A DNA stretch of 64,000 bases from Sipunculus nudus (lineage: Eukaryota > Annelida > Sipuncula > Golfingiida > Sipunculidae). The position numbers and the translations under genes are program-made. Each line of letters opens with the position of its first letter. The stretch's first letter is position 1. Of the stretch, positions 5,615 to 63,851 are shown piece after piece. The stretch lies in assembly GCA_026874595.1 (NCBI GenBank), contig CM049316.1, positions 53,577,676 to 53,641,675 on the forward strand. The letters are read 5' to 3'. The notes under the pieces were generated by a model. That model was not told the origin of the DNA, searched no databases, and saw nothing but the letters and a program-made list of their open reading frames with translations.

Positions 5615-6256
5615 ACACTTAGTCATACAAACAGTTGTTCTCTAAATATGTTCTGCAGTCCAAACACTTAGTCATACAAACAGTTGTTCTCTAAATATGT
5701 TCTGCAGTCCAAACACTTAGTCATACAAACAGTTGTTCTCTAAATATGTTCTGCAGTCCAAACACTTAGTCATACAAACAGTTGTTCTCTAAATATGTTC
5801 TGCAGTCCAAACACTTAGTCATACAAACAATTGTTCTCTAAATATGTTCTGCAGTCCAAACACTTAGTCATACAGACAATTGTTCTCTAAATATGTTCTG
5901 CAGTCCAAACACTTAGTCATACAGACAATTGTTCTCTAAATATGTTCTGCAGTCCAAACACTTAGTCATACAGACAATTGTTCTCTAAATATGTTCTGCA
6001 GTCCAAACACTTAGTCATACAGACAATTGTTCTCTAAATATGTTCTGCAGTCCAAACACTTAGTCATACAAACAGTTGTTCTCTAAATATGTTCTGCAGT
6101 CCAAACACTTAGTCATACAAACAATTGTTCTCTAAATATGTTCTGCAGTCCAAACACTTAGTCATACAGACAATTGTTCTCTAAATATGTTCTGCAGTCC
6201 AAACACTTAGTCATACAAACAATTGTTCTCTAAATATGTTCTGCAGTCCAAACACT
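5615..6256. repeat. 49-bp minisatellite, 13 copies
   Basis: Unit: ACACTTAGTCATACAAACAG, then TTGTTCTCTAAATATGTTCT, then GCAGTCCAA. Unit boundaries return exactly every 49 bases from 5615 to 6251, with a 5-base partial copy at the end. Copies differ mainly at two sites (ACAAACA or ACAGACA; CAGTTG or CAATTG). Near-identity of copies implies recent expansion or homogenisation. Confidence 0.95.
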
Positions 6257-7725: not shown

Positions 7726-7860
7726 GAACAAACAGAGGAGGTCACGAGAAAGTTGGTAGAAACACAGGACAGGGAACAAGAACTCAGACGCAGCTTGAAT
7801 AGTCTTGAGGAATCAGCCGCCAAAATGGAAGCAGAAAAACTGAAGCAGCTTGCACAGGAG
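7726..7860 (+). CDS. LRRCC1: LRRCC1 exon a (coiled coil)
   Basis: The exon is 135 bases (45 codons, phase 0 at both ends). The acceptor is TTGTCTTCAG and the donor is GAG|GTAAAA. The peptide starts EQTEEVTRKLVETQDREQEL and ends KLKQLAQE, a typical charged coiled-coil segment. It is the first exon I can recognise in the window; the upstream exon must also end in phase 0 and was not found in 1-7725. I do not remember the vertebrate sequence here well enough to claim residue matches, so assignment rests on frame continuity with the next exon, good splice sites and coiled-coil composition. A further small exon in the 9.6-kb intron that follows cannot be excluded. Confidence 0.8.
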
Positions 7861-17450: not shown

Positions 17451-17590
17451 ACTAAAAATGCACAAGAGGCAGACATGAGAGCAGCAGCCAGCAGAAGAGA
17501 GTGCGAGATGTTAAACCACAGTGTTAATGGGCTGAGGGAGCAGGTCCGTCAACTACAGGAGCTGTTATCCAGCAGAGAACAGGAACACAG
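17451..17590 (+). CDS. LRRCC1: LRRCC1 exon b (coiled coil)
   Basis: The exon is 140 bases, beginning in phase 0 and ending two bases into an arginine codon. The acceptor is TTATTCTTCCAG and the donor is CACAG|GTCAGT. The peptide has QEADMRAAASRRE near the start and LQELLSSREQEHR at the end. The latter leads into the KE.E.RV..ESP segment that starts the next exon, as in vertebrate LRRCC1. Reading runs open past the donor for about 100 bases, but that extension is unlike coiled coil and the GT fits the phase of exon c. Confidence 0.88.
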
Positions 17591-28288: not shown

Positions 28289-29130
28289 TTTTGTGTTATG
28301 TGCACTCATGCCAGAATTTCAGCAGTGATGTTTGTGTAATTGTTTCTTATTCAAAATGTTTAGTAATTGCATCATTCATATACATGAGAAGTAATGGTCC
28401 AGCATTGAAGCATTAAACCTGGTGTATTTCCCGATGCACAGGTTCACATTAGGCCTGTAGGCCTTGTTTAAATTAAAATATGAGAATCATAGTCATTAAA
28501 AAATTAGAACATTATTCAATTAATATGGAATACTTATACACATGTAAAATTGTTCATGTTTGACATGACATTTTTAGGTGGATATGACTGGATTCAGCAT
28601 CATTATAAATACACATAATCATGGGCACATATTTGTCAATTATTTACCTTATCATATTGTCAATCTTGTCACTTCAGAGTGTTGTTTGACTGTCACACTT
28701 TGTGAGACTAGCTGCAAGGTTAACTAACTGTGTCAAAGTCCAAGGCCAGAGATTATGTAACATAAAAAATTACATCAAACTTGAAACTGAATCTATAGTG
28801 CTGCCGATCCCATTTATAAATTTAAAAATATATTTGGACATTTCTCATATGAGGTTAACAAATCTTAAACCTGCCCTTTGCAACACTGTCATATACATTA
28901 TTAATTTTAGATTATAATAAAATGGAAATTAGATATGCTGTAATTATGGTATTTGCTGAACACTAAAATATACATTGTATGATTGTATTATGAAGATTGT
29001 ATTATGACTCAATGCAAAGTCTCTCAGCTGAATATCATGACCAAATGGTGACTTTTTATAATAGTAAAACTTTGAGTTCAAACTAAATACTCATAAATAA
29101 AACTCATGTCTTTTCTCTCATGAATTGTAG
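28289..29130. other. Intron sequence without recognised features
   Basis: AT-rich. Ends at the acceptor of exon c. Confidence 0.5.
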
Positions 29131-29247
29131 GAAGGAAATGGAAAGAAGAGTCTCACTTGAAAGTCCAAAGCTTCAGGAAATAATAAACCGTGAGCGTTCC
29201 AAACAGGAGTCACATCACACTCAACAGCTGCAGCTTCAGCAACAGCA
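29131..29247 (+). CDS. LRRCC1: LRRCC1 exon c, whose 3' end lies in an 82-bp tandem array
   Basis: The exon is 117 bases. The acceptor is ATGAATTGTAG, its first base completes the AGG codon from exon b, and the donor is AGCA|GTAAGTATA, leaving CA to be completed by G of exon d (CAG, Gln). The peptide runs KEMERRVSLESPKLQEII then a Q-rich tail ending LQLQQQQ. It resembles the LRRCC1 segment with LESP. The last 58 bases, the donor and the first 24 intron bases form the first unit of an 18-copy 82-bp array. If the first donor is skipped, the next codon in frame is TAA at 29249-29251, so only the first copy gives a full-length protein. The Q-rich tail is the part exposed to repeat turnover. Confidence 0.88.
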
Positions 29248-30665
29248 GTAAGTATACCCACATGTTACATGGTCAGCGTTCCAAACAGGAGTCACATCAC
29301 AATCAGCAGCTGCAGCTTCAGTGACAGCAGTAAGCATACCCACATGTAACAAGGTCAGCGTTCCAAACAGGAGTCACAGCACACTCAACAGCTGCAGCTT
29401 CAGCGACAGCAGTAAGTAAACCCACATGTTACACGGTCAGTGTTCCAATCAGGAGTCACAGCACACTCAACAGCTGCAGCTTCAGTGACAGCAGTAAGCA
29501 TACCCACATGTTACATGGTCAGTGTTCCAAACAGGAGTCACAGCACACTCAACAGCTGCAGCTTCAGTGATAGCAGTAAGTATACCCACATGTTACACGG
29601 TCAGTGTTCCAAACAGGAGTCACAGCACACTCAACAGCTGCAGCTTCAGTGACAGCAGTAAGTAAACCCACATGTTACACGGTCAGTGTTCCAAACAGGA
29701 GTCACTTCACACTCAACAGCTGCAGCTTCAGCGACAGCAGTAAGTATACCCACATGTTACACGGTCAGTGTTCCAAATAGGAGTCACATCAAGCTCAACA
29801 GCTGCAGCTTCAGTGACAGCAGTAAGCATACCCACATGTTACATGGTCAGTGTTCCAAACAGGAGTAACAGCACACTCAACAGCTGCAGCTTCAGTGACA
29901 GCAGTAAGTATACCCACATGTTACACAGTCAGTGTTCCAAACAGGAGTCACAGCACACTCAACAGCTGCAGCTTCAGTGACAGCAGTAAGTATACCCACA
30001 TGTTACACAGTCAGTGTTCCAAACAGGAGTCACATCTCACTCAACAGCTGCAGCTTCAGTGACAGCAGTAAGTATACCCACATGTTACACAGTCAGTGTT
30101 CCAAACAGGAGTCACATCTCACTCAACAGCTGCAGCTTCAGTGACAGCAGTAAGTATACCCACATGTTACACAGTCAGTGTTCCAAACAGGAGTCACAGC
30201 ACACTCAACAGCTGCAGCTTCAGTGACAGCAGTAAGTATACCCACATGTTACACAGTCAGTGTTCCAAACAGGAGTCACATCTCACTCAACAGCTGCAGC
30301 TTCAGTGACAGCAGTAAGTATACCCACATGTTACATGGTCTGTGTTCCAAACAGGAGTCACTTCACACTCAACAGCTGCAGCTTCAGTGATAGCAGTAAG
30401 TATACCCACATGTTACACGGTCAGTGTTCCAAACAGGAGTCACTTCACACTCAACAGCTGCAGCTTCAGTGACAGCAGTAAGTATACCCACATGTTACAT
30501 GGTCAGTGTTCCAAACAGGAGTCACAGCACACTCAACAGCTGCAGCTTCAGTGACAGCAGTAAGTATACCCACATGTTACATGGTCAGAGTTCCAAACAG
30601 GAGTCACATCTCACTCAACAGCCGCAGCTTCAGCGACAGCAGTTAGTATACCCACATGTTACGCG
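29190..30665. repeat. 82-bp tandem array spanning an exon-intron boundary, 18 copies
   Basis: Exactly 18 x 82 bases with no length change. The unit starts GTCAGTGTTCCAAACAGGAG, continues through CAACAGCTGCAGCTTCAG, and ends with the donor-bearing AGCAGTAAGTATACCCACAT and GTTACACG. Copy 1 (29190-29271) contains the last 58 bases of exon c and its donor at 29248. Copies 2 to 17 keep GTAAG at the same place; copy 18 has GTTAG at 30642. Most later copies carry CAGTGACAG where copy 1 has CAGCAACAG; copies 3, 7 and 18 have CAGCGACAG. 82 is not a multiple of three, so the overlapping 70-codon frames here are artefacts. Confidence 0.97.
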
Positions 30666-32429
30666 GTCAGTGATGATAATTTCAATGTCCTCAGATCCAT
30701 GGAAATCCTGCACTTTGGACATTCTAAGTCCTCATGAAAAAAATAAATGCATCCACACAGAAAAAATAGGAAATACTATTATTGAAAAAAATAATGAAGA
30801 AATTTCTGTATATTTTCAATAATAACTGTTCTTGTATCTTTTGACATCAAGTTTCATTCTTGTGCAGATAATCAACATTTAAAGTATAAAAATGACATTT
30901 ATGCCCATTGTTTCCTTTGTGAATATGGAGCTGTTAGTATGATTGTAGGTAAACTTCAATCCTTACTATGAACATGCGATCATGTTTGTGTTCTCTATCT
31001 GTTCCCTTAACTTGATGAGCTGGCCTTGTCCATATGACAAGATCTTCACAAATTTAGTTTTATAGAACAAAATTCAACCTTCAGCTTGTTAAATTTTCAA
31101 TTTCATCCTTTTTCATGTACACCTAATAATAGCAAGTGATATGTGAGGAAACAGGATTTGGGAACATTATTGTCCTTGGTGATCAAAACCTTAATGAACC
31201 TGTCAGAACCGTGTGACTATATCTGCAGCGATAATAATATCAGCTAATAATAGGAGGCAGATTCATGGCCATGAGAACGGGCCACAGAGGAAGAATTCTA
31301 GTTCCACAGTACTGACTTTCATGACCTGAAACACATCCAGTCTTTAATATTGTTGACACAAGTGTCTCATTTCTGTTCTATCTTTGTGTCATATTTTCAT
31401 TTGATATGTTTGTATATACCCAGTATTATTTTGTTATTTGTCTAACAGGAACATTTTTTCTTTCTGCTTCCTTTTCACTTGCTGTTTCATAGTCATGTAT
31501 CAGTTATGCATTTCCATGGGCTTTATATTTAACCAAATATTCATAACATAAAACACTGTATCTCCAGTCTATGTACAGCCTAAGAAAAGGCCCACTCATT
31601 GCCAGTGATGCCCCCCATATGTCCTGGTCTGACATCGGCTTAACATGGAGTTAACATCGGGATATGTAGAGGACACAATTCGGTGACATAGGAATAACAT
31701 TTGGAAGTGGAGAATCTGAGAAATATTGGGATATATTTCAATATGTTCAGAAATGTTTATAATCAGCATGATGTCTGGACACGTCAGGGTGACATCATGA
31801 GATATTGGGGTGACATCGGGACACGTGGGGTTAGGGAAGACATCTGGACAACACGTCAGGGTGACATCAGCAATATGTGAGCCAACCTTTAGACCTATTA
31901 AAAAAGGTCAAAATGCATCTTTCTTTGAAGTTGTTTTATACTTAGATTAAATGTTGGTTTCTTTTGCTACTATTTTGTTACCTGCAGGGTGAAGGACTAT
32001 TTATAAATGCTTCCTCGCTCTTTTTGATGCTGTTCTTATAATTTTTGTTTTCATTGGGGAAGATATGTTGTTTCATTATAAATTACTAGCTACCATAGAT
32101 GTGCTGAGTGTCTTTTAGTCAGGACGTGGTGTATATAACCATTATCATTATCATGCAATGTGTCCTTTGTTATGAGACCTTTGAAGTTTTATTGTATCTT
32201 TGAGGCTAGTCTTTGATGTCATGAAATATTGAGAGAAAGTGGTTTTGTAATAATTGATTGTACCATCCCATACCTCCTGATAGAGAAGTTTTCCAACCTT
32301 AGGGCGGAGTCCTACAATTAAAGATGGTTATTTTCAATTAATAATTCAAAGTTATTTTTTTGCCAATGTACTTATGACATGTCTGATATCCCTCTCCAAT
32401 ATTTTTCGTACATTCCAGAAAAAATTCAG
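30666..32429. other. Intron sequence with a degenerate short-repeat patch
   Basis: No gene was seen. Around 31590-31880 there are scattered repeats of ACGTCAGGGTGACATC and TGACATCGGGA, too irregular to give a period. Confidence 0.5.
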
Positions 32430-34712
32430 TTACAAGACGCAATAGCTTCTATACCATTACCTGGCCAATAACAAGAAACAATAGTTTCTACACCACTACC
32501 TTGCCAATAACAGGAAAACAATAGTTTCTACACCACTACCTGGCCAATAACTAGAAACTATAGTTTCCGCAGCAGTACCTGGCCAAGTACTAGAAACAAT
32601 AGTTTCTACACCACTACCTGGCCAATTACTAGAAACTATAGTTTTCGCAGCAATACCTGGTTAAGTACTAGAAACAATAGTTTTCACAGCAGTGCCTGGC
32701 CAATTACTAGAAACAATAGTTTCCGCAGCAGTACCTGGCCAATTACTAGAAACAATAGTTTTCACAGCAGTGCCTGGCCAATTATAAGAAAAACAATATT
32801 TTCTACACCACTACCTGGCCAATTACTAGAAACAATAGTTTCCGCAGCAGTACCTGGCCAATTACTAGAAACAATAGTTTTCACAGCAGTGCCTGGCCAA
32901 TTATTAGAAACAATATTTTCTACACCACTACCTGGCCAATTACTAGAAACAATAGTTTCCGCAGCAGTACCTGGCCAATTACTAGAAACAATAGTTTTTG
33001 CAGTAGTATCTGGCCAATTACTAGAAACAATAGTTTCTACAGCACTATCTGTCCAGTAACAAGAAACAATGGTTTATACACCAATACCTGGCCAGTATCA
33101 AGAAACAATAGTTTCTACACCACTATCTGGCCAATCACTAGAAAAAATAGTTTCCACAGCAGTACCTGGCCAGTAACAAGAAACAATAGTTTCTACACCA
33201 CTACCTGTCTAATAACAAGAAACAATACTTTATTCAGCAGTACCTGGCCAGTAACAAGAAACAATAGTTTCTACACCACTACCTGTCCAATAACAAGAAA
33301 CAATAGTTTCCACAGCATTACCTGGCCAGTATCAAGAAACAATAGTTTCTACACCACTATCTGGCCAATCACTAGAAAAAATAGTTTCCACAGCAGTACC
33401 TGGCCAGTAACAAGAAACAATAGTTTCTACACCACTACCTTTCCAATTACAAGAAACTATAGTTTCTAAACCACTACCTGGCAAGTAACAAGAAACAATA
33501 GTTTCTTCACCACTACCTGACCAATTACTAGAAACAATAGTATCTACACCACAACCTGGCAAGTAACAAGAAACAATAGTATCTACACCACTACCTGGCC
33601 AATTACAAGAAACAATAGTTTATACACCAATACCTGGCAAGTAACAAGAAACAATAGTATCTACACCACTATCTGGCCAATTACAAGAAACAATAGTTTA
33701 TACACCAATACCTGGCAAGTAACAAGAAACAATAGTTTCTTCACCACTACCTGGCGAATTACTAGAAACAATAGTTTATACACCACAACCTGGCAAGTAA
33801 CAAGAAACAATAGTTAATTCACCACTACCTGGCCAATTACTAGAAACAATAGTTTATACACCAATACCTGGCAAGTAACAAGAAACAATAGTATCTACAC
33901 CACTACCTGGCCAATTACAAGAAACAATAGTTTATACACCAATACCTGGCAAGTAACAAGAAACAATAGTTTCTTCACCACTACCTGACCAATTACTAGA
34001 AACAATAGTATCTACACCACAACCTGGCAAGTAACAAGAAACAATAGTATCTACACCACTACCTGGCCAATTACAAGAAACAATAGTTTATACACCAATA
34101 CCTGGCAAGTAACAAGAAACAATAGTTAATTCACCACTATCTGGCCAATTACTAGAAATTATAGTTTCCGCAGCAGTACCTGGCCAGTAACAAGAAACAA
34201 AAGTTTCCGCAGCAGTACCTGGCCAGTAACAAGAAACAAAAGTTTCCGCAGCAGTACCTGGCCAGTAACAAGAAACAAAAGTTTCTACAGCACTACCTGG
34301 CCAGTAACAAGAAACAATAGTTTCTACAGCCCTACCTGGCCAGTAACAAGAAACAAAAGTTTCTACAGCCCTACCTGGCCAGTAACAAGAAACAAAAGTT
34401 TCTACAGCCCTACCTGCATTAACAAGAAACAAAAGTTTCTACAGCCCTACCTGGCCAGTAACAAGAAACACTAGTTTCTACAGCCCTACCTGGCCAATAA
34501 CAAGAAACAATAATTTCTACACCACTACCTGGCCAGTAACAAGAAACAATAGTTTCTACACCACTACCTGGCCAATTACAAGAAACAATAATTTCTACGC
34601 CAGTACCTGGCCAGTAACAAGAAACAATAATTTCCACACCACTACCTGTCCAGTAAAAAGAAACAATAGTTTCTACGCCACTACCAGACCTGTAACAAGA
34701 AACAGTAGTTAT
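32430..34712. repeat. 39-bp minisatellite, about 58 copies
   Basis: Typical unit: CTGGCCAGTAACAAGAAACA, then ATAGTTTCTACACCACTAC. Variants fall into groups, such as ACTAGAAACAATAGTTTCCG with CAGCAGTAC, and GGCAAGTAACAAG with GTATCTACACC. Because 39 is divisible by three, long minus-strand frames arise with a 13-residue repeat like VSCYWPGSGVETI. These are repeat artefacts unless transcript evidence shows otherwise. Confidence 0.95.
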
Positions 34713-36611
34713 TTTGACATGGCACCATTTATAGACAGTTTATAAAAATAAACACACAGGTCTTGGATCCATTTGAATGTGAAATCAATCTAAGAAACTT
34801 TACAGAATGTCACTCTGGAGCCTAAGTAATTTCCTGACCTTACAGCTTAAATATTAACAACCAATCATGGTCACTTGACAAATATCACTTCATCATGCAC
34901 AATAACTTAAGTTGGAAATGACATCAGTATAAGTAGTGTCATACTACATCACCAGCCTGCATTCAGTTTACAAGTTTGTGGCCATACACAATGTAAACCT
35001 CTCAGGTTCCTTTAAAAAATATGGTACATACAGTATTAATCAGACACTTGTTTCAATCAGACAAAAAGCTTGACAGCATCAGGAGGCTCTAAATGCTGTT
35101 ATCCTGGTAGTTAGACTAAAACCTTTCCTTTTGACCACATTTCCTCATACTTAGACTGGTCTTTAAAGTACACCACTGTGAAAATTGCAGCTTGAGTAAG
35201 GACAAGTCACACCTGTGAGTGATCACGTAACTCTTAATGGTCATCTCAGTCTGCTACAAAATAGATGAAGCCATCAGCAGAAAACCAAGCTGCAGCAAAA
35301 TAACATTCTACCATAGAGTTTGAATACTATTCCTTGGAAAAAAAAAAAACAGTCACTATAGAGTCATAGTCAAGCATTGCCATATCTTCATTAACATGTA
35401 ATTTATAATGATACCTACAGCATGGTGTGAGTTATAATCATATATTCTTGTATGTCCTGGTAGCTCACTTGTTATCTGTATACCGGTACATCATTAAACA
35501 TCAGGCATGTTATCAACTGGATATACATTGGCGGTGAAGCAAAATATTCATTGGGGGGCCTAATAGTAGATATCCATGACATACAAATGGAAAATTTTTA
35601 AAAACTGTTTGTATACTACTGCATTCTAATGCATTTTTTGCTGTCATTTATTGGTCAATGCTTACTTTAAAAGAAAAAAAAAGAATATATATATCAACTT
35701 TGCAATATTTTTTTTTGCACCTCAAATTCTAGGGGGTTTATATATATATATATATTTATATATATATACATATATATATATGCACTTATGGGGTTGATAT
35801 AGGGATGGGGCAGTCTATTACAGTCCTGTACAGGAGAATATACTAACTGTACTGAGAAATACTGGTACTCCTTATGTTTTTCCATCATAATGTGCCACTG
35901 GGGGTCCCCCCCCCCCCCTCCCAGTTCCATGGGGTATGATGCAAGATGCCAAACCTGTTTCATGGCCTGTCTATTACAGAGTTTAATAGCCCAACTAGTG
36001 AAAGCAATCAGGATCAAATTGACAAACTGCACTTCCCTGGATGTACCAAACTCTGCACTTATCCTTGTTGAAGTTTGTGCATTGTGCAAGTTCATTTTAG
36101 TTTGAGCTAAGAGAGAGTGATCATATTTGCTTGATAACATGGGTCGTTACGTAAGATGTTATGGATTTTTCTGATTGGGCAGGCCAGTATGGAGGCTTTA
36201 CCAATCGATGTGCCAGCTTGTCCTATTTATGCACAACTTGGAGAAAATACTTTGCATGGTTCTTCATGTCCATGTTTATGTATAAATGACTTTTTTTGTA
36301 AAACTCTGTTCACACATTAGTCAGACATTACATGTAATGTCATTTTTAAAGTGCTGTTGTTGTATGTATTTGGACCTTTCTAATGGACCAGGGTATATAG
36401 GTGCTGATCTTTCCAAGACCTAGGGCAAAGGTGTTTGCCATAGTTTTTCTCACTCTTCTGACAGTAGTATATAGCAGCTGGTCATGAAAATTTATTGTAC
36501 CCATGTTTTGCAAAAAGGTTCTTCCATTTCACCCATGAGTGACAGGCACTAGACCCTGGTCAAGGACTGTCAATTGGATGCATCCTTTTTACCAGGAGTT
36601 TGACTTTACCT
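34713..36611. other. Intron sequence with a TA-rich tract and C run
   Basis: A (TA)n-like tract lies at about 35739-35782 and a C run at about 35907-35918. The two reading frames across this area are shaped by these simple repeats. Confidence 0.5.
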
Positions 36612-37274
36612 TAAGGTGTGGCACAATGGTTTGTCTTTGACTACATGGAGGTGTGGCACCATGGTTTGTCTTTGACTACATTAAGGTGTGGCACCATAGT
36701 TTGTCTTTGACTACATTAAGGTGTGGCACCATGGTTTGTCTCTGACTAGATTGAGGTGTGGCACCATGGTTTGTCTTTGACTACATGGAGGTGTGGCACC
36801 ATGGTTTGTCTTTGACAACATTGAGATGTGGCACCATGGTTTGTCTTTGACTACATTGAGGTGTAGCACCATGGTTTGTCTCTGACTACATTAAGGTGTG
36901 GCACAATGGTTTGTCTCTGACTACATTGAGGTGAGGCACCATGGTTTGTCTCTGACTAGATTGAGGTGTGGCACCATGGTTTGTCTTTGACTACATTGAG
37001 GTGTGGCACCATGGTTTGTCTTTGACTACATTGAGGTGTGGCACCATGGTTTGTCTTTGACTACATTAAGGTGTGGCACCATAGTTTGTCTTTGACTACA
37101 TTAAGGTGTGGCACCATGGTTTGTCTCTGACTACATTAAGGTGATGCACCATGGCTCGTCTTTGACTACATTAAGGTGTGGCTCCATGGTTTTTCTTTGA
37201 CTACATGAAGGTGTGGCACTATGGTTTGTCTTTGACTACATTAAGGTGTGGGACCATGGTTTGTCTTTGACAAC
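36612..37274. repeat. 35-bp minisatellite, about 19 copies
   Basis: Unit: TTAAGGTGTGGCACCATGGT, then TTGTCTTTGACTACA. Variation is mainly TTAAGG / TTGAGG / ATGGAGG and TCTTTG / TCTCTG. The period is 35 bases, with occasional copies differing in length by a base. Confidence 0.95.
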
Positions 37275-39284
37275 CATTACAAGCAAAAATTATGACATTT
37301 GGAGACATCTTGAGGGTGCAATGAAAATTAAAACATAGCCACTATGACATGTGGAGACATCTGCAGGGGATAATAAAAACTAAAACATATTGATAGGACA
37401 AGGGGCGGACATAAATTCCATGAGCTTGTTAATGCTAGCCATTGATAACTATCAAGCACTATTATTTATTACTGCTACTGCATGTCACTGTAGACTCGAA
37501 AAGAGAAAAGTGTCTCAGACCCAGAGGCAAAGTGCATATGACTGTTAGTGTTATCATCAGATATATCAGACTATAAACCCTGTACCCGTAGATTAACATG
37601 AAAAGAGCAATTCCTAAGGTCAAGCTGCTGATTCTACTGATTTTTTTGTCATTTCACCTTGAATGCATACCTCCTATGAGCAGATGTCCCTAGTTCAACC
37701 ATAGACCATCTATTTTTGTCTCTTTTACTGTCACACTTCATGTTTGAAATACATTCATTTCTTAATTAATCAGTGAACCTGCCTTTTGCCCATCCATTGT
37801 AACTCATATGCGAAGAAAATTCAAATATGACATCCAGCCAGCTTTTGGTAAGTCTTCATGGAAACCTGGAACTGGGTCATTGACCTATAATCAGTGAGCA
37901 ATATGGCAAAAATTCATTTTTTCCTCACAATAAAAGTCAAGTTATTTATTCTTTGTTTTCAAGGTTGCTGAACACATGTTTTCCCATTGTATCATAAAAT
38001 TGAACTAATGTGCTCCATTTATACGTGTCTTTGTCAAAAGCTTTAAATACACTTTTAACTAACATTGGTGAATTACATCCAGTCCATTTTGAGCTCAATT
38101 TAAAAAAGCTACAGCAGTTAATGATATATTGAAATTTGCCTAACATGTTGATCATACTTGTATTTTGTTATCAATTGATCAGGAGCAGTGCAAACATCTG
38201 TAATTAATTTTTTAAACAACAAATTCCTATGCATGCATCTTTAAGAGAATTTTGTCAGGTTTATAAGTTTGTGTCCTGCAGCTGAGTTCTTACACCTGGA
38301 GGTTTTGGCCCTGGGATGGTTAAGCTATTTAGGAAGCTAAAAATCAAATCTTTAGTTTAGCAGATTGGTCACAGTTCAAATGTTAATCTGCAAGGTAGAC
38401 TCTTCTAAAGACTGAAGGGCTGTATTAGAGGCAGCACATGTGACTGTCCCGTCCATGTGACAGAACCAGTAGCTCCCACAGGGCAGTCATATAATGGACA
38501 TCACATGACCAGGAGGTGTCATCCCACAATTCCAATACCAATTACCACCAGGGCAGCCTGGTTGGGTGGTGATGCAGGCAGGGAGGGATGCCTGGTATGA
38601 TGCAGTGTCTTAGCACTAGTGTGATTTGATCGTTCTTCTGAGACGCTGCCAGCAAGATGAGGACAGACTATCCAGTGTTAATCGGGTTACTGCTCAGCCA
38701 CACTTGATGTTCCTGCGGACACCAGACCACTTATCTGGTTTCATGTCACAGAAAGCGAAGCAAGTCTTTTGAAACAGAATCACGGTCACATTCTCCTTGT
38801 CATGACAGAGGAACATGAAGGGCGTAGATTGTTAATTTAATTAACTATATCCTACTCTCATTACATCTTATTCTTACTGCATAATCAAAAGGGCTGTCCA
38901 TCATTTCTTTGATATCAAGGGATGTAATCAAACTAAATTCAACACTCATCAAAAGTACCTTCCAGGATTATTAGAATAACTTGTGCAAATATTAGTCATT
39001 GTTATTTTCATTAAGAGTAAATGCTTAAATGTATTACCTTTTCTGTCCATTGTCCTTATTACCCATCAGTGCTGAAAGCTTACCCATGGTCATTTATCAT
39101 TTCATTTGACATTCTAATGGTTATGATTTAGAGATTTTGAGTCAAATGCCTATAAGCTGTTCATGTGCACCAAAATATCAGATATTCCTATATCAGACTT
39201 TTCATCAGACTGTTTAAAGAGTTTTTCACAGGTCACATCTCTGATCATTTTTATTGGGTTTGACAACAAAGCTCTTTCTTTATT
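37275..39284. other. Intron sequence without recognised features
   Basis: No gene, RNA or element was recognised. Confidence 0.5.
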
Positions 39285-39940: not shown

Positions 39941-40025
39941 GCTAGATCAGTTAACCCGACAGTACTCTGAGCTGGAGGACGAGTTTCGGGCAGCCCTCCA
40001 GATTGAAGCTTCTCGGTATAATGAG
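39941..40025 (+). CDS. LRRCC1: LRRCC1 exon d (ELEDEFR coiled coil)
   Basis: The exon is 85 bases. The acceptor is TTGTATTTTCAG and the donor is GAG|GTCAGT. Its first base completes a Gln codon with exon c, then LDQLTRQYSELEDEFRAALQ and IEASRYNE follow. This is one of the best-preserved LRRCC1 blocks; the vertebrate protein has LDQ.YMELEDEFR.AL.IEA.R as I remember it. It ends in phase 0. Confidence 0.93.
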
Positions 40026-41220: not shown

Positions 41221-41320
41221 TGAGCGTTGTTAATTCCCAGCTTCCACAGTAAACCTGACCATCTGATCCTATGTAACAAAATATGACATAATGATTTACT
41301 GAGTGGTAGTTGAAGAAACC

Positions 41321-41576
41321 AGATAGGACCACCGCGTCACTAATATCTGTGAAATCAGATAGAACCACCGCGTCACTAATATCTGTGAAATCAGATAGGA
41401 CCACCTCATTAATATCTGTGAAATTAGATAGGACCACCGCGTCACTGATATCTGTGAAATCAGATAGGACCACCGCGTCACTAATATCTGTGAAATCAGA
41501 TAGGACCACCGCGTCACTAATATCTGTGAAATCAGATAGGACCACCGCGTCACTAATATCTGTGAAATCAGATAGA
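41321..41576. repeat. 36-bp minisatellite, about 7 copies
   Basis: Unit: AGATAGGACCACCGCGTCAC, then TAATATCTGTGAAATC. One copy is 33 bases (CCACCTCATTAATATC). Divisible by three, so both strands show long repetitive frames: SDRTTASLISVK on plus and SDFTDISDAVVL on minus. CpG (CGCG) in each unit is unusual against the AT-rich surroundings. Confidence 0.95.
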
Positions 41577-42074: not shown

Positions 42075-43263
42075 AACTAGAATACGGGTAGTCGACAAGC
42101 GACTACGTGTATCCGCCTAAATCAGAGTGGAACGGGTGAAGTGAGGCATGGATTGAGTGGCAAGGGGAAATAGAGTGAAGTGTTGCATATTAGCATGGAT
42201 GTCTGCAGCCAAATGGTGTATGTAGGTTGCGCCACCTACCACAAAATCCAGAAAGCCGCCCAAGTTGTATACATATGTAAAATTTGAGGCAGACAAGTCA
42301 AACCACTATATGTTTATGAGTGATTTTAGCCCCTGGCAGACAAACAGATGGACGCTGTGCAAAAATGGTTGTAGGTAGCGCCACTAGTTTTGCGTATGAT
42401 AAAGAGCTATGTGAGAACTAAACACATGCAAAAGTTTGGCCCAATCGGTCAAACGGTTCCCAAGATATGAGCTTGGATGTCTGCTGCATAAACTAGAATG
42501 CAGGTGGCGCCACCTGTCATAAAATCAAGAGAGCTGTCGGGGATGTATAAACCTGCAAAATTTTAGGCAGATATGTCAAACCACTGCCCAGATATGAGTG
42601 ATTTTATCCCATGGCAGACAAACAGACGGGAGCTGTTCAAAAATGGCTGCAGGTGGCGCCACCAGTTTTGTGTATGATAAAGAGCTATGTGAGATCTATA
42701 CACATGCAAAATTTTGGCCCAATCGGTCAAACGGTTCCCAAGATATGAGCTTGGATGTCTGCAGCGTAAACATGAATGTAGGTGGCGCCACCTGTCATAA
42801 AATCAGAAAAGCTATCCAGGATGTATACGCATGCCAAATTTCAGGTGAATTAGTCAAATAACTGCAGAGATATGAGTGATTTTATCCCAAGGCAGACAAA
42901 CAGACAGGAGCTGTGCAAAAATGGCTGCAGGTGGTGCCACCATTTTTTGTGTATGTTATAAAGCTCTCCAAGGGCTATATTTGTGCAAAAAAATTTTCCT
43001 GATCCGTCAAATGGTTCCCGAGATATGTGGGTTTATGTGTGGAAACAGACGCACAAACGGACAGAGAGCGCAGAGGAAAGGTCAGAGGTCAAAACAAAAA
43101 TCGGGGCGCAGCAGTTCACTTGTGACCCGAACATAATCCCGGGTTTCGTAAAATTCCGCCCAGCAGTTACGGAGGAGTTCTCCGGACACCTACGCTGCGG
43201 CGGCGGCGGCGGCGTGCAGAGAAAACATAGTATCCGCAAAACTCTGTTTTGGCGGATACAATA
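42075..43263. mobile_element. Palindrome-bearing ~1.2-kb element, copy A
   Basis: The left end holds GTAGTCGACAAGCGACTAC (a 7-base stem) and GTATCCGCCTAAATCAGAG. The right end holds GTATCCGC and GGCGGATAC around AAAACTCTGTTTT, a strong hairpin whose outer arm is the inverse of the left end. Between them lies a 278-base repeated unit with two GGTGGCGCCACC-type palindromes, at 42225, 42374, 42503, 42652, 42781 and 42930. The spacing alternates 149/129. No transposase is present. Subterminal hairpins plus a tandem core recall pearl/Helentron-type non-autonomous elements known from bivalves; that naming is inference. Confidence 0.65.
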
Positions 43264-43875: not shown

Positions 43876-44893
43876 AAACTAGAATATGGGTAGTCGACAA
43901 GCGACTACGTGTATCCGCTTAAATCAGAGTGGAACGGGTGAAGTGAGGCATGGATTGAGTGGCAAGGGAAAATAGAGTGAAGTGTTGCATATTAGCATGG
44001 ATGTCTGCAGCCAAATGGTGTATGTAGGTTGCGCCACCTACCACAAAATCCAGAAAGCCGTCCAAGTTGTATACATATGCAAAATTTGAGGCAGACAAGT
44101 CAAACCACTATATGTTTATGAGTGATTTTAGCCCGTGGCAGACAAACAGATGGATGCTGTGCAAAAATGGTTGAAGGTGGCGCCACCAGTTTTGCGTATG
44201 ATAAAGAGCTATGTGAGAACTATACACATGCAAAACTTTGGCCCAATCGGTCAAACTGTTCCCAAGATATGAGCTTGGATGTCTGCTGCATAAACTAGAA
44301 TGCAGGTGGCGCCACCTGTCCTTAAATCAAGAGAGCTGTCGGGGATGTATAAACCTGCAAAATTTTAGGCAGATATGTCAAACCACTGCGGAGATATGAG
44401 TGATTTTATCCCATGGCAGACAAACAGACGGGAGCTGTTCAAAAATGGCTGCAGGTGGCGCCACCAGTTTTGTGTATGATAAAGAGCTATGTGAGATCTA
44501 TACACATGCAAAATTTTGGCCCAATCGGTCAAACGGTTCCCGAGATATGAGCTTGGATGTCTGCAGCGTAAATGTGAATGTAGGTGGCGCCACCTGTCAT
44601 AAAATCAGAAAAGCTATCCAGGATGTATACGCATGACGAATTTCAGGTGAATTAGTCAAATCACTGCAGAGATATGAGTGATTTTAACCCAAGGCAGACG
44701 AACAGATGGACACTGTGCAAACATGGTTGCAGGTGGCGCCACCATTTCTTGTGTATGTTATAAAGCTCTCCAAGGGCTACATTTGTGCAAAAAAATTTTC
44801 CTGATCCGTCAAACGGTTCCTTAGATATGTGGGCAGCGGCGGCGTGCAGCTGAAAACATAGTATCCGCAAAACTCTGTTTTGGCAGATACAAT
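43876..44893. mobile_element. Palindrome-bearing ~1.0-kb element, copy B
   Basis: Collinear with copy A in the same orientation. All six palindromes lie exactly 1802 bases after those of copy A (44027, 44176, 44305, 44454, 44583, 44732). Near the right end it lacks about 170 bases that copy A has between 43030 and 43200, including the (CGG)n stretch. It ends with the same CCGCAAAACTCTGTTTTGGC hairpin core. Confidence 0.65.
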
Positions 44894-47794: not shown

Positions 47795-50700
47795 ACGAGT
47801 ACTGTAGTCAAGGCTGCCAGCTTCTTACCTTACATACATACACGCACAAGGTACAGTAGTCCAGGCTGCCAACCTCTTACCTTACATACACACATACACT
47901 AGGTACAGTAGTCCAGGCTGCCAACCTCTTACCTTATATACACACATACACAAGGTACAGTAGTCCAGGCTGCCAACCTCTTACCTTATATACACACATA
48001 CACAAGGTACAGTAGTCCAGGCTGCCAACCTCTTACCTTATAAACACACATACACTAGGTACAATAGTCCAGACTGCCAACCTCTTACCTTACATACACA
48101 CATACACAAGGTACAGTAGTCCAGGCTGCCAACCTCTTACCTTATATACACACATACACAAGGTACAGTAGTCCAGGCTGCCAACCTCTTACCTTACATA
48201 CACACATACACTAGGTACAGTAGTCCAGGCTGCCAACCTCTTACCTTATATACACACATACACCAGGTACAGTAGTCCAGACTGCCAACCTCTTACCTTA
48301 TATACACACATACACAAGGTACAGTAGTCCAGACTGCCAACCTCTTACCTTATATACACACATACACAAGGTACAGTAGTCCAGGCTGCCAACCTCTTAC
48401 CTTACATACACACATACACTAGGTACAGTAGTCCAGGCTGCCAACCTCTTACCTTATATACACACATACACAAGGTACAGTAGTCCAGACTGCCAACCTC
48501 TTACCTTACATACACACATACACTAGGTACAGTAGTCCAGGCTGCCAACCTCTTACCTTATATACACACATACACAAGGTACAGTAGTCCAGACTGCCAA
48601 CCTCTTACCTTATATACACACATACACAAGGTACAGTAGTCCAGGCTGCCAACCTCTTACCTTACATACACACATACACTAGGTACAGTAGTCCAGGCTG
48701 CCAACCTCTTACCTTATATACACACATACACTAGGTACAGTAGTCCAGGCTGCCAACCTCTTACCTTATATACACACATACACAAGGTACAGTAGTCCAG
48801 GCTGCCAACCTCCCACCTTATATACACACATACAAAAGGTACAGTAGTCCAGGCTGCCAACCTCTTACCTTATATACACACATACACAAGGTACAGTAGT
48901 CCAGACTGCCAACCTCTTACCTTATATACACACATACACAAGGTACAGTAGTCCAGGCTGCCAACCTCTTACCTTACATACACACATACACTAGGTACAG
49001 TAGTCAAGGCTGCCAACCTCTTACCTTATATACACACATACACAAGGTACAGTAGTCCAGACTGCCAACCTCTTACCTTACATACACACATACACTAGGT
49101 ACAGTAGTCAAGGCTGCCAACCTCTTACCTTATATACACACATACACAAGGTACAGTAGTCCAGGCTGCCAACCTCTTACCTTATATACACACATACACA
49201 AGGTACAGTAGTCCAGGCTGCCAACCTCTTACCTTACATACACACATACACTAGGTACAGTAGTTAAGGCTGCCAACCTCTTACCTTATATACACACATA
49301 CACAAGGTACAGTAGTCCAGACTGCCAACCTCTTACCTTACATACACACATACACTAGGTACAGTAGTTAAGGCTGCCAACCTCTTACCTTATATACACA
49401 CATACACAAGGTACAGTAGTCCAGACTGCCAACCTCTTACCTTATATACACACATACACAAGGTACAGTAGTCCAGGCTGCCAACCTCTTACCTTACATA
49501 CACATACACTAGGTACAGTAGTCAAGGCTGCCAACCTCTTACCTTATATACACACATACACAAGGTACAGTAGTCCAGACTGCCAACCTCTTACCTTATA
49601 TACACACATACACAAGGTACAGTAGTCCAGACTGCCAACCTCTTACCTTATATACACACATACACAAGGTACAGTAGTCCAGGCTGCCAACCTCTTACCT
49701 TACATACACACATACACTAGGTACAGTAGTCAAGGCTGCCAACCTCTTACCTTATATACACACATACACAAGGTACAGTAGTCCAGGCTGCCAACCTCTT
49801 ACCTTATATACACACATACACTAGGTACAGTAGTCAAGGCTGCCAACCTCTTACCTTATATACACACATACACAAGGTACAGTAGTCCAGACTGCCAACC
49901 TCTTACCTTATATACACACATACACAAGGTACAGTAGTCAAGGCTGCCAACCTCTTACCTTATATACACACATACACTAGGTACAGTAGTCAAGGCTGCC
50001 AACCTCTTACCTTATATACACACATACACTAGGTACAGTAGTCAAGGCTGCCAACCTCTTACCTTATATGCACACATACACTAGGTACAGTAGTCAAGGC
50101 TGCCAACCTCTTACCTTATATGCACACATACACTAGGTACAGTAGTCCAGGCTGCCAACCTCTTACCTTATATGCACACATACACTAGGTACAGTAGTCC
50201 AGGCTGCCAACCTCTTACCTTATATACACACATACACTAGGTACAGTAGTCCAGGCTGCCAACCTCTTACCTTATATACACACATACACTAGGTACAGTA
50301 GTCCAGGCTGCCAACCTCTTACCTTATATACACACATACACTAGGTACAGTAGTCCAGGCTGCCAACCTCTTACCTTATATACACACATACACAAGGTAC
50401 AGTAGTCCAGGCTGCCAACCTCTTACCTTATATACACACATACACTAGGTACAGTAGTCAAGGCTGCCAACCTCTTACCTTATATACACACATACACTAG
50501 GTACAGTAGTCAAGGCTGCCAACCTCTTACCTTATATGCACACATACACTAGGTACAGTAGTCCAGGCTGCCAACCTCTTACCTTATATGCACACATACA
50601 CTAGGTACAGTAGTCCAGGCTGCCAACCTCTTACCTTATATACACACATACACTAGGTACAGTAGTCAAGGCTGCCAACCTCTTACCTTATATACACACA

Positions 50701-53562
50701 TACACTAGGTACAGTAGTCCAGGCTGCCAACCTCTTACCTTATATACACACATACACTAGGTACAGTAGTCCAGGCTGCCAACCTCTTACCTTATATACA
50801 CACATACACAAGGTACAGTAGTCCAGACTGCCAACCTCTTACCTTATATACACACATACACAAGGTACAGTAGTCCAGGCTGCCAACCTCTTACCTTATA
50901 TACACACATACACTAGGTACAGTAGTCAAGGCTGCCAACCTCTTACCTTATATACACACATACACTAGGTACAGTAGTCAAGGCTGCCAACCTCTTACCT
51001 TATATGCACACATACACTAGGTACAGTAGTCCAGGCTGCCAACCTCTTACCTTATATACACACATACACTAGGTACAGTAGTCAAGGCTGCCAACCTCTT
51101 ACCTTATATACACATATACACTAGGTACAGTAGTCCAGGCTGCCAACCTCTTACCTTATATACACACATACACTAGGTACAGTAGTCAAGGCTGCCAACC
51201 TCTTACCTTATATACACACATACAAAAGGTACAGTAGTCCAGGCTGCCAACCTCTTACCTTATATACACACATACACTAGGTACAGTAGTCCAGACTGCC
51301 AACCTCTTACCGTACATACACACATACACTAGGTACAGTAGTCAAGGCTGCCAACCTCTTACCTTATATACACACATACACAAGGTACAGTAGTCCAGAC
51401 TGCCAACCTCTTACCTTACATACACACATACACTAGGTACAGTAGTCAAGGCTGCCAACCTCTTACCTTATATACACACATACACAAGGTACAGTAGTCA
51501 AGGCTGCCAACCTCTTACCTTATATACACACATACACCAGGTACAGTAGTCCAGACTGCCAACCTCTTACCTTATATACACACATACACAAGGTACAGTA
51601 GTCCAGACTTCCAACCTCTTACCTTACATACACACATACACAAGGTACAGTAGTCAAGGCTGCCAACCTCTTACCTTATATACACACATACAAAAGGTAC
51701 AGTAGTCCAGGCTGCCAACCTCTTACCTTATATACACACATACACTAGGTACAGTAGTCCAGACTGCCAACCCCCTTACCTTACATACACACACACACTT
51801 GGTACAGTAGTCAAGGCTGCCAACCTCTTACCTTATATACACACATACACAAGGTACAGTAGTCCAGACTGCCAACCTCTTACCTTACATACACACATAC
51901 ACTAGGTACAGTAGTCCAGGCTGCCAACCTCTTACCTTATATACACACATACACAAGGTACAGTAGTCCAGGCTGCCAACCTCTTACCTTACATACATAC
52001 ATACACAAGGTACAGTAGTCAAGGCTGCCAACCTCTTACCTTACATACACACATACACTAGGTACAGTAGTCAAGGCTGCCAACCTCTTACCTTATATAC
52101 ACACATACACAAGGTACAGTAGTCCAGACTGCCAACCTCTTACCTTACATACACACATACACTAGGTACAGTAGTCCAGGCTGCCAACCTCTTACCTTAT
52201 AAACACACATACACTAGGTACAGTAGTCCAGACTGCCAACCTCTTACCTTATATACACACATACACTAGGTACAGTAGTCCAGACTGCCAACCTCTTACC
52301 TTACATACACACATACACTAGGTACAGTAGTCCAGGCTGCCAGCCTCTTACCTTATATACACACATACACTAGGTAAAGTAGTCAAGGCTGCCAACCTCT
52401 TACCTTACATACACACATACACTAGGTACAGTAGTCAAGGCTGCCAACCTCTTACCTTACATACACACATACACTAGGTACAGTAGTCAAGGCTGCCAAC
52501 CTCTTACCTTATATACACACATACACTAGGTACAGTAGTCAAGGCTGCCAACCTCTTACCTTACATACACACATACACTAGGTACGGTAGTCAAGGCTGC
52601 CAACCTCTTACCTTATATACACACATACACTAGGTACAGTAGTCAAGGCTGCCAACCTCTTACCTTACATACACACATACACTAGGTACAGTAGTCAAGG
52701 CTGCCAACCTCTTACCTTACATACACACATACACTAGGTACAGTAGTCCAGACTGCCAACCTCTTACCTTATATACACACATACACAAGGTACAGTAGTC
52801 AAGGCTGCCAACCTCTTACCTTACATACACACATACACTAGGTACAGTAGTCCAGGCTGCCAACCTCTTACCTTATATACACACATACACTAGGTACAGT
52901 AGTCAAGGATGCCAACCTCTTACCTTATATACACACATACACTAGGTACAGTAGTCAAGGCTGCCAACCTCTTACCTTATATACACACATACACTAGGTA
53001 CAGTAGTCAAGGCTGCCAACCTCTTACCTTATATACACACATACACTAGGTACAGTAGTCAAGGCTGCCAACCTCTTACCTTATATACACACATACACTA
53101 GGTACAGTAGTCAAGGCTGCCAACCTCTTACCTTATATACACACATACACTAGGTACAGTAGTCAAGGCTGCCAACTTCTTACCTTATATACACACACAC
53201 ACTAGGTACAGTAGTCCAGGCTGCCAACCTCTTACCTTATATACACACATACACTAGGTACAGTAGTCCAGGCTGCCAACCTCTTACCTTATATACACAC
53301 ATACACTAGGTACAGTAGTCAAGGCTGCCGACCTCTTACCTTATATACACACATACACTAGGTACAGTAGTCAAGGCTGCCAACCTCTTACCTTATATAC
53401 ACACATACACAAGGTACAGTAGTCCAGACTGCCAACCTCTTACCTTACATACACACATACACTAGGTACAGTAGTCCAGGCTGCCAACCTCTTACCTTAT
53501 ATACACACATACAAAAGGTACAGTAGTCCAGGCTGCCAACCTCTTACCCTACATACAACACC
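47795..53562. repeat. 52-bp minisatellite, about 110 copies (5.8 kb)
   Basis: Unit: GGTACAGTAGTCCAGGCTGC, then CAACCTCTTACCTTATATAC, then ACACATACACAA. The period is 52 bases throughout. Main variable sites: TCCAGG/TCCAGA/TCAAGG, TTATATAC/TTACATAC/TTATATGC, and CACAAGG/CACTAGG. The first copy (with GAGTACTGTAGTCAAGG) and the last (ending ACCCTACATACAACACC) are the most diverged, as expected for array edges. One copy near 49500 is shortened by 4 bases. Confidence 0.97.
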
Positions 53563-53743: not shown

Positions 53744-53857
53744 CTTCAGAATGCATATGAGAAAATCAGCACAGAATCAGCAGAAAACAAACAGGCTCTC
53801 ATAGCTGCTCAGAGGAAAGATGAGAAGTCTTCAAACATAATCACTGAACTTACCGCA
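53744..53857 (+). CDS. LRRCC1: LRRCC1 exon e (coiled coil)
   Basis: The exon is 114 bases (38 codons, phase 0 both ends). The acceptor TTATTTGGTTCAG follows a pyrimidine-rich stretch and the donor is CCGCA|GTAAGT. The peptide contains AYEKISTESAENKQALIAAQ then RKDEKSSNIITELTA, matching the vertebrate segment with ALIWAQRKE.ESS and I..LT. It begins only about 180 bases after the end of the 5.8-kb 52-bp repeat array. Confidence 0.92.
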
Positions 53858-57008: not shown

Positions 57009-57080
57009 ATGGTCAAGGAGCAGAAGGGAAGAATCTCAGAGTTATCCAAGTCAAAACATGAACAGACATCACAGTACAAG
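57009..57080 (+). CDS. LRRCC1: LRRCC1 exon f (MVKEQK)
   Basis: The exon is 72 bases (24 codons, phase 0). The acceptor is TTTGTGTAG and the donor is AAG|GTACGA. The peptide MVKEQKGRISELSKSKHEQT then SQYK matches the LRRCC1 segment beginning MVKEQK. The pyrimidine tract before the acceptor is mixed with purines, so the acceptor is weaker than its neighbours. Confidence 0.92.
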
Positions 57081-59847: not shown

Positions 59848-61345
59848 ATCGCCAGACATAGTCTGGAGATACTATGGTTTAGGCACGGTCGCGCCACCGC
59901 CGCAGAGATTTCTTTTGGACACAATAACTCAAAAAATATTTCATGAATCTTTACCAAACTTGGTATATGTATAGATATGGGTGAGAGGACGACGCCTATT
60001 TAAAATGAGGTCATGACCTCAACTAGGAGAGTGACCTTGACCTTGAATAGGTTCAGTTTTGGGGAAAATCACACAAATTCTTAAATATCTCAAGAAAACT
60101 TGCATGGATTGATCCCAAAATCAAGTTGATCGAAGACCATGGATAGGGTTGTCATGTTCCAGAAACTGGTGGAGCCACCTATTATTCTTTACTTGTTTTC
60201 ATGCCGTAATATCCGCAAAATTGCTACTTGACAGTACTGTGAGCATTATAAGTCAAAAACTAATGGACAGATTTCTTTCATATTATGCAAATACATAGAT
60301 ATGGGTTATGGGATGATGTTTATTTAAATTGGGGTCATGACCTTTCCTATGAGAGTGGCCTTGACCTTGAATATTGCCATATATGGTGAAAATCACACAA
60401 AATCATTAATTTCTCAATAAGGGATGCATGCATTGGTCCAAAAATCAACTTGACCAAAGATCTTGGATAGTAATGTCATGAACCGGAAACAGGTGGCGCC
60501 ACCTGTTATTCTTTTACTTGTTTTCGTGCCGTTTAATACCCCATCATTGCCACTTAACAGTACATTTATAACCTGTGAGCATTATAAGTCAAAAACTAAT
60601 GGACAGATTTATTTCATATTATGCATATACATAGACATGGGTTATGGGATGATGTATATATAAATTGGGGTCATGACCTTTCCTATTAGAGTGGCCTTGA
60701 CCTTGAATATTGCCATATATGGTGAAAATTACACAAAATCATTAATATCTCAATAAGGGATGCATGCATTGGTCCAAAAATCAACATGGTTGAAGATCTT
60801 GGAAAGTATTGTCATGTACCGGAAACAGGTGGTGCCACCTGTTATTCTTTTTCTTGTTTTGTGCCGTTTAATACCCCATCATTGCCATTTATCAGTACTG
60901 TGAGCATTATAAGTCATAAAAAACTAATGGACAAATTTCTTTCATATTATGTATATACATGGATATGGGTTATAGGATAATGTTTATTTGAATAGGGGTC
61001 ATGACCTTTCCAATGAGTGGCCTTGACCTTGAATATTGCCATATATGGTGAAAATCACACAAAATCATTAATTTATCAATAAGGGATGCATTGATTGGTC
61101 CAAAAATCAACTTTAACGAAGATCTTGGATAGTGTTGTCATGTACGGGAAACAGGTGGTGCCACCTGTTATTCTTTTACTTGTTTTCGTGCCGTTTAATA
61201 CTCCATCATTGCCACTTAACAGTATTGTGAGCATTATAAGTCAAAAACTAATGGACAGATTTCTTGCATATACATAGACATGGGTTAGGGGATGATGTAT
61301 ATTGAAATTTGGATCATGACCTTTTCTATGAGAATGACCTTTTCT
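59848..61345. repeat. Element with ~325-base tandem units
   Basis: Opens with GCCAGACATAGTCTGGAGAT and ACTATGG (two overlapping hairpins). Then about four units of 323-337 bases follow, each with TTGTTTTCGTGCCGTTTAAT, GAGCATTATAAGTCAAAAAC, GGTCATGACCTTTCCTA, GGCCTTGACCTTGAATATTG and a GGTGG.GCCACC palindrome at 60169, 60492, 60829 and 61154. No coding capacity; the 60-66-codon frames in it are repeats of one another. Confidence 0.75.
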
Positions 61346-63762: not shown

Positions 63763-63851
63763 GGGCCTCACTTGCTCAGGACAGGGGCAGACTTGAAGCG
63801 AAGATTGAGTCCTTCTCTACGGAGGTTGTGTCTCTGAAGAAACAGCTGGAG
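63763..63851 (+). CDS. LRRCC1: LRRCC1 exon i (SLAQDRGRLEA)
   Basis: The exon is 89 bases. The acceptor is TTGTTTTAATAG and the donor is GAG|GTGATG. The first two bases complete the glycine codon, then ASLAQDRGRLEAKIESFSTE and VVSLKKQLE follow; vertebrate LRRCC1 has SSLAQ.RG.LEA.IES here. The donor is weak (GTGATG). If it is not used, the frame stays open for 30 more codons to a TGA at 63942-63944, giving a tail with no coiled-coil character. The following exon is outside the window. Confidence 0.88.

Follow-up and report, generated by a model that had tools for sequence, protein, structure and literature searches.

Tandem repeats that lie across exon-intron boundaries have been described in amphioxus genes under the name of mirages (PMC3087553, PMC3902484). 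According to these accounts, mirages are unstable in length and their units are homogenised except at the edges of the cluster (PMC3087553). Reverse transcription PCR is reported to suggest that they do not interfere with regular splicing (PMC3087553), and those of Adh and TnC are stated to yield no aberrant mRNA (PMC3902484). Similar repeats are noted in the lancelet PGBD5 gene, where a gene predictor annotated the repeats as exon, without confirmation (PMC3902484). Among human genes, the minisatellite of 6-16 (IFI6) is cited as giving multiple splice donor sites, with two downstream units in use (PMC4526556). The variable number tandem repeat (VNTR) of ABCA7 is described as showing a unit retention of about 2% that is not length-dependent and a skipping of exon 19 that rises with length (PMC5954066). 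Intron gain by tandem duplication is itself the topic of a further paper (PMC2891723). Here we present a locus of this kind from the sipunculan annelid Sipunculus nudus: an 82-bp minisatellite that copies the end of an exon, its splice donor and the first intron bases 18 times within a stretch of 64,000 nucleotides (assembly GCA_026874595.1, contig CM049316.1, positions 53,577,676 to 53,641,675), to which all positions below refer and which we call the window. We read the array as a mirage-type minisatellite that would be a nearly neutral by-product of repeat growth, with the first donor dominant, and give this reading a probability of roughly 0.73. The literature compared comes from one open-licence library, and we do not claim to be the first to report a mirage from outside amphioxus.

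The array (Table 1) consists of 18 head-to-tail units, all of which stay in register when the sequence is cut every 82 bases. Tandem Repeats Finder (TRF) calls it at 29196-30672, with a period of 82, 18.0 copies, 94% matches and 0% indels. Sixteen of the 18 unit sequences are distinct, copy 10 being identical to copy 13 and copy 11 to copy 12; each unit differs from the consensus at 2 to 6 bases, whether the cut starts at 29190 or at 29191, and pairs of units differ from one another at 0 to 11. Copy 1 is made up of 58 exon bases (29190-29247) followed by 24 intron bases (29248-29271), and the unit spans the exon-intron boundary, with the exon taken from an in-frame gene model. These results agree in full with an earlier sequence-only reading of this DNA, which had listed 18 exact-length 82-bp copies at 29190-30665, each containing the 58 exon bases, the 5′ splice site and the 24 intron bases. 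The array is closed by seven bases of a 19th unit, GTCAGTG, of which 5 of 7 match GTGAGCG at the start of the array (29190-29196); this closing motif is possibly the remnant of a short direct repeat where the duplication started. Elsewhere in the window (29100-30700 excluded), the consensus unit aligns without gaps at no more than 38/82 bases on the + strand and 42/82 on the - strand, values that rule out a chance origin. The core pattern of the unit has no exact match among prokaryotic and viral contigs, as expected there, and this comparison is uninformative on conservation. That the copy number, or the array as a whole, was created by misassembly has a parallel in lancelets, where mirages vary by record: a draft BflGb6 was called aberrantly assembled (PMC3087553), and counts of 7 versus 2 and of 6 versus 3 units are given (PMC3902484). 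Here, the 16 distinct unit sequences, their common register and the unique flanks make such an artefact scarcely credible, although the exact number of 18 may still be wrong.

Splice signals and an open frame together define a model of seven + strand exons with acceptors, donors and matching phases, which join into 735 nt (245 codons) free of stops. Among the 18 array donors, only donor 1 leaves the frame open throughout, up to and including exon G. All 17 later donors retain the in-frame TAA at 29249-29251 and give the same truncated product, ending QLQLQQQQ. The claims that the first copy gives the full protein and that any later donor would keep this codon and truncate the message are thus both upheld across the seven modelled exons. 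Each unit added would lengthen exon C by 82 nt, from 117 nt with donor 1 to between 199 and 1511 nt with the later donors, and the exon lies between introns of about 11 kb each. Exon definition is expected to disfavour over-long exons between long introns; the later donors would therefore be at a disadvantage, and donor 1 is most likely used for nearly all messages. If a few of the donors that come next were used at a low level, the messages would gain units together with the TAA, which may lead to nonsense-mediated decay or to a truncated protein. The host gene is provisionally called LRRCC1, a name that comparisons with Pfam and PDB do not confirm: a Pfam search of the 245-aa product, with E up to 0.1, gives no match, and its four PDB matches (E 0.12 to 0.28) are taken as chance. 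By eye, this product has the look of a coiled coil. LRRCC1 is described as the human ortholog of Chlamydomonas Vfl1p, with a long C-terminal coiled coil (PMC8983040).

The donor hexamers of the array are GTAAGT in 14 copies, GTAAGC in three (copies 2, 4 and 8) and GTTAGT in copy 18; the count of 17 GTAAG and one GTTAG given by the sequence-only reading is therefore correct. Calculated copy by copy, a comparison that the same reading had proposed, the predicted pairing with U1 (fixed register) is -7.5 kcal/mol in 12 of the 18 copies, donor 1 included, and weaker in the remaining six (-7.2 in two, -2.8 in three and -3.6 in copy 18). The donor of exon E shares GCA/GTAAGT (the slash marks the splice site) with donor 1. 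In our analysis, conservation of the donor columns does not exceed that of the remainder of the unit. First, columns -3 to +6 hold four differences over the 18 copies, and 41 of 74 unit stretches of the same width have as few. Second, for columns +1 to +6 the same is true of 54 of 77 stretches. Third, the exonic part of the unit carries 0.62 differences per column (36 in 58) and the intronic part 0.83 (20 in 24). With 18 related copies of one sequence this is a weak test, which weak selection could escape; a selected array of donors is unsupported, since the donor columns lack extra conservation.

The pattern of differences among the copies is consistent with ordinary minisatellite turnover. 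The interior is homogenised and the edges are divergent, with copies 8 and 17 as exceptions: divergence is highest in copies 2, 18, 8 and 1, and the mean distance to the other copies is 6.7 for copy 1 and 8.1 for both copy 2 and copy 18. Copies that lie further apart also tend to differ more, the mean distance being 4.35 at lag 1 and 8.0 at lag 17. Positions -7 to -5, in the exon frame, read CAA in copy 1, CGA in copies 3, 7 and 18, and TGA in the remaining 14 of the 17 later ones; since a single CpG transition turns CGA into either CAA or TGA, CGA is probably the ancestral form. The array may have begun as a short tandem duplication across the boundary of exon C and its intron, perhaps by slippage or unequal exchange between GTGAGCG (29190) and GTCAGTG (now at 30666). 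Ordinary repeat turnover would then have expanded it to 18 units, growing into the intron, and such growth would be tolerated because the first copy preserves the true exon end and donor.

The surroundings of the array point in the same direction. The window holds 11 large arrays (TRF arrays with a period of at least 30 and a span of at least 250, the 82-bp array included), which cover 14,603 of its 64,000 bases. With 22.8% of the window thus covered, a single exon edge inside an array is unremarkable: in 20,000 trials of random placement, overlaps allowed, a mean of 2.7 of the 14 exon edges fell within an array and at least one did so in 85%, against one observed. The lack of indels is likewise shared with the 49-, 39-, 35- and 52-bp arrays (0% each; 2% in the 36-bp array). 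Rows of donor-like motifs also occur where no exon is involved. The 52-bp array of intron D (47799-53557, about 111 copies) carries AGGTRAG 108 times on its antisense strand, by far a longer row of such motifs than that of the 82-bp array. On a donor scoring matrix these motifs reach at least 6.05 as against 2.01 for donor 1, and their U1 pairing is -6.9 in 105, -7.3 in one and -7.5 in two, the last being the value of donor 1. In the 35-bp array, 17 sense sites equal or surpass donor 1 on the matrix, and only one does so in U1 pairing. Repeated donor-like motifs therefore arise in this window without an exon, and the strength of those in the 82-bp array is copied from a real donor.

Several observations weigh against a neutral array with a dominant first donor. 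The gradient among the copies is not clean: the interior copy 8 (7.1) is more divergent than the edge copy 1, and copy 17, on the edge side, is the least divergent of all (3.7). The random placement control takes no account of selection against arrays at exons. The dominance of donor 1, though most likely, is deduced from sequence, and donor strength alone does not favour it, since 13 of the 17 later donors have the same GTAAGT and 11 of the 17 equal it in U1 pairing energy. The signals in mirage repeats, it has been pointed out, could serve as cryptic splice sites (PMC3087553), and later copies are in use in human arrays, namely two downstream units in IFI6 (PMC4526556) and a single retained unit in about 2% of ABCA7 messages (PMC5954066). 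Finally, sites with a U1 energy of -7.5 or better, counted on both strands, number 12 in the 82-bp array as against 5, 2 and 1 in the 39-, 52- and 35-bp arrays and none in the 49- and 36-bp arrays, eight in these five together.

These points bear on two functional alternatives. The close match of the later donors to donor 1 over GTAAGT would suit an array that serves as a source of isoforms in the manner of IFI6/6-16, its downstream units being spliced to yield a regulated share of truncated protein or of message targeted for decay; donors 2 to 18 would all contribute to the one truncated product, and IFI6 is reported to yield three mRNA species from two downstream repeat units (PMC4526556). 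We consider this unlikely, given that conservation of the donor columns does not rise above background, that each unit lengthens the exon by 82 nt and that splicing at amphioxus mirages is suggested to be undisturbed (PMC3087553, PMC3902484). The number of copies that match donor 1 in U1 pairing, above that of each of the five other simple arrays, would in turn fit an array that gathers U1, either to shield the long intron from early polyadenylation or to titrate U1. The first AATAAA of intron C (30742-30747), 77 bases beyond the array, is in keeping with such a role and might provide a 3′ end within the intron for messages in which donor 1 is not spliced. The AATAAA counts across the introns give no clear link (A, 20 in 9.6 kb; B, 18 in 11.5 kb; C, 5 in 10.7 kb; D, 4 in 13.7 kb; E, 3 in 3.2 kb; F, 9 in 6.7 kb), the donor columns bear no mark of selection, and donor motifs also amass where they are unable to act on the host gene, as on the antisense strand of the 52-bp array. 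The decoy donors and the U1 landing strip put forward by the sequence-only reading thus find no support in sequence, their donor columns being unprotected and such motifs accumulating in an exon-less array as well, and a U1-related role is highly improbable.

Array length provides a further angle. Skipping of exon C, an outcome absent from the list in the sequence-only reading, would remove 39 codons and keep the frame. It is compatible with a switch of the ABCA7 type, in which array length alters the inclusion of a neighbouring exon or the level of the message. The ABCA7 VNTR is described as starting at the donor of exon 18, its length is correlated with reduced expression and with exon 19 being skipped in frame, and the 1.5 kb of the present array fall within its allele range of 0.3 to 9.7 kb (PMC5954066). 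Against this, skipping of exon D (85 nt), which corresponds to exon 19 of ABCA7, would disrupt the frame, the donor columns show no sign of selection, and the comparison covers a single allele. The length-variable switch proposed earlier thus draws nothing from the sequence and owes its standing to the ABCA7 precedent (PMC5954066); we regard it as very unlikely. The array could also be conceived as a dial that, through its variable length, adjusts the dosage of a gene for centriole polarity, copy number setting the amount of full-length protein. If so, every additional donor would slightly increase the fraction of transcripts that either retain the TAA at 29249 or terminate at the AATAAA located 77 bases after the array; this is a long shot. 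Taken alone, the array is most likely a tolerated repeat.

TTCAG precedes the donor in all 18 copies, just as had been noted before. The tiny exons that it was thought to permit are unlikely: the 20 nt upstream of all nine AGs in the consensus unit are 45-60% pyrimidine and 15-25% T, whereas six of the seven modelled acceptors have 70-90% pyrimidine and 55-65% T, the acceptor of exon G (55%) being as weak as the array AGs. A second donor-like motif recurs at the unit junctions (29272 + 82n), with GTCAGTG in 13 of 18 copies and of the GTCAGT type found in the donors of exons B and D. None of its 19 occurrences reaches the U1 pairing of donor 1 (best -7.1 versus -7.5), and 11 of 19 equal or exceed donor 1 by the matrix. 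By position, splicing at this motif in copy 2 or any later copy would likewise leave the TAA in the message, and the preferred reading is unchanged. An RNA structure that hides the donor was considered and set aside, as neither the unit (z -0.26) nor exon C together with copy 1 (z -0.56) folds better than shuffled sequences. A scan of the window for RNA genes gave no tRNA and, at gathering thresholds, no Rfam match.

The antisense strand of the 82-bp array holds 16 sites at which the U1 energy is at least as good as -6.5. Minisatellites abound in the window. A 39-bp array (32432-34710, 58 copies, 0% indels) contains long open frames on both strands, up to 236 aa on the + strand, because its period is a multiple of 3. 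Two arrays with nearly identical 278-bp units (42187-42955 and 43989-44757, 2.8 copies each), about 1 kb apart, form a duplicated block. Further arrays lie at 5615-6256 (49 bp), 36607-37279 (35 bp), 41315-41575 (36 bp) and 59971-61324 (336 bp).

Table 1. Positions of the array, its donors and the modelled exons within the 64,000-nt window.
Feature	Position	Strand	Basis
82-bp minisatellite, 18 copies of exon end + donor + 24 intron bases	29190..30665	+	TRF, unit cutting, unit comparison
Donor 1, GTAAGT, sole frame-keeping donor of 18	29248..29253	+	Frame of seven-exon model
In-frame TAA kept by donors 2-18	29249..29251	+	All 17 end at same codon
Last donor copy (18), GTTAGT	30642..30647	+	Unit comparison
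Partial 19th unit GTCAGTG	30666..30672	+	Sequence; origin putative
Exon A	7726-7860	+	In-frame seven-exon model
Exon B, 140 nt, upstream neighbour	17451-17590	+	In-frame seven-exon model
Exon C, 117 nt, phase 2 in/out; last 58 bases = exonic part of copy 1	29131-29247	+	In-frame model; acceptor ...gaattgtag/GAAG, donor AGCA/gtaagtatac
Exon D, 85 nt, phase 2 in, downstream neighbour	39941-40025	+	In-frame seven-exon model
Exon E	53744-53857	+	In-frame seven-exon model
Exon F	57009-57080	+	In-frame seven-exon model
Exon G	63780-63851	+	In-frame seven-exon model

If donor 1 is used almost exclusively in the presence of 17 similar competitors in cis, the locus offers a natural test of donor choice with respect to exon length, transcription order and proximity. 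If the later donors are used, array length becomes a natural dose series.

Turri et al. (1995) reportedly described the IFI6 (6-16) minisatellite as supplying several splice donor sites in one transcript, and its unit is said to be much shorter than 82 bp. Repeated donors are what IFI6 has in common with the present array; downstream units are in use in IFI6, whereas the present array is described from its sequence, a difference that also holds with respect to the amphioxus mirages. The VNTR in intron 18 of ABCA7 is similar in that the array starts at an exon donor, the units repeat the donor and a single unit can be retained; it differs in its 25-bp unit, its purely intronic position, its effect on the downstream exon and its strong length variation in people (PMC5954066). 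The 82-bp unit is not of this wholly intronic type beginning at the donor, as 58 of the 82 bases in copy 1 belong to the exon. Human internal tandem repeats at exon-intron boundaries share the expansion of a boundary minisatellite and were proposed to form novel introns; they come from a survey of recent human paralogs (PMC2812944), and the 82-bp array implies no new intron. The account of earthworm genes, in its available text, describes intronic minisatellites and no repeated boundary (PMC12783039). The closest likeness is to the amphioxus mirages (Adh3, TnC, BflGb6 and BflGb9, with PGBD5 similar), with which the array shares boundary-spanning repeats; both 5′ and 3′ boundaries are described as duplicated there (PMC3087553, PMC3902484). 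The gene is a different one, the two BflGb6 haplotypes have 6 and 3 units as against 18 here, and the unit of 82 bp compares with 10-72 bp in Adh3, 150-160 bp in BflGb6 and 157 bp in BflGb9. Like mirages, the array is a tandem minisatellite with a boundary-spanning unit and splice signals in many of its units. It is a new instance of an already described layout, and that layout and two of the functional ideas in the sequence-only reading have precedents; with its 18 units it extends the list of published mirages, repeats that were proposed as raw material for new introns.
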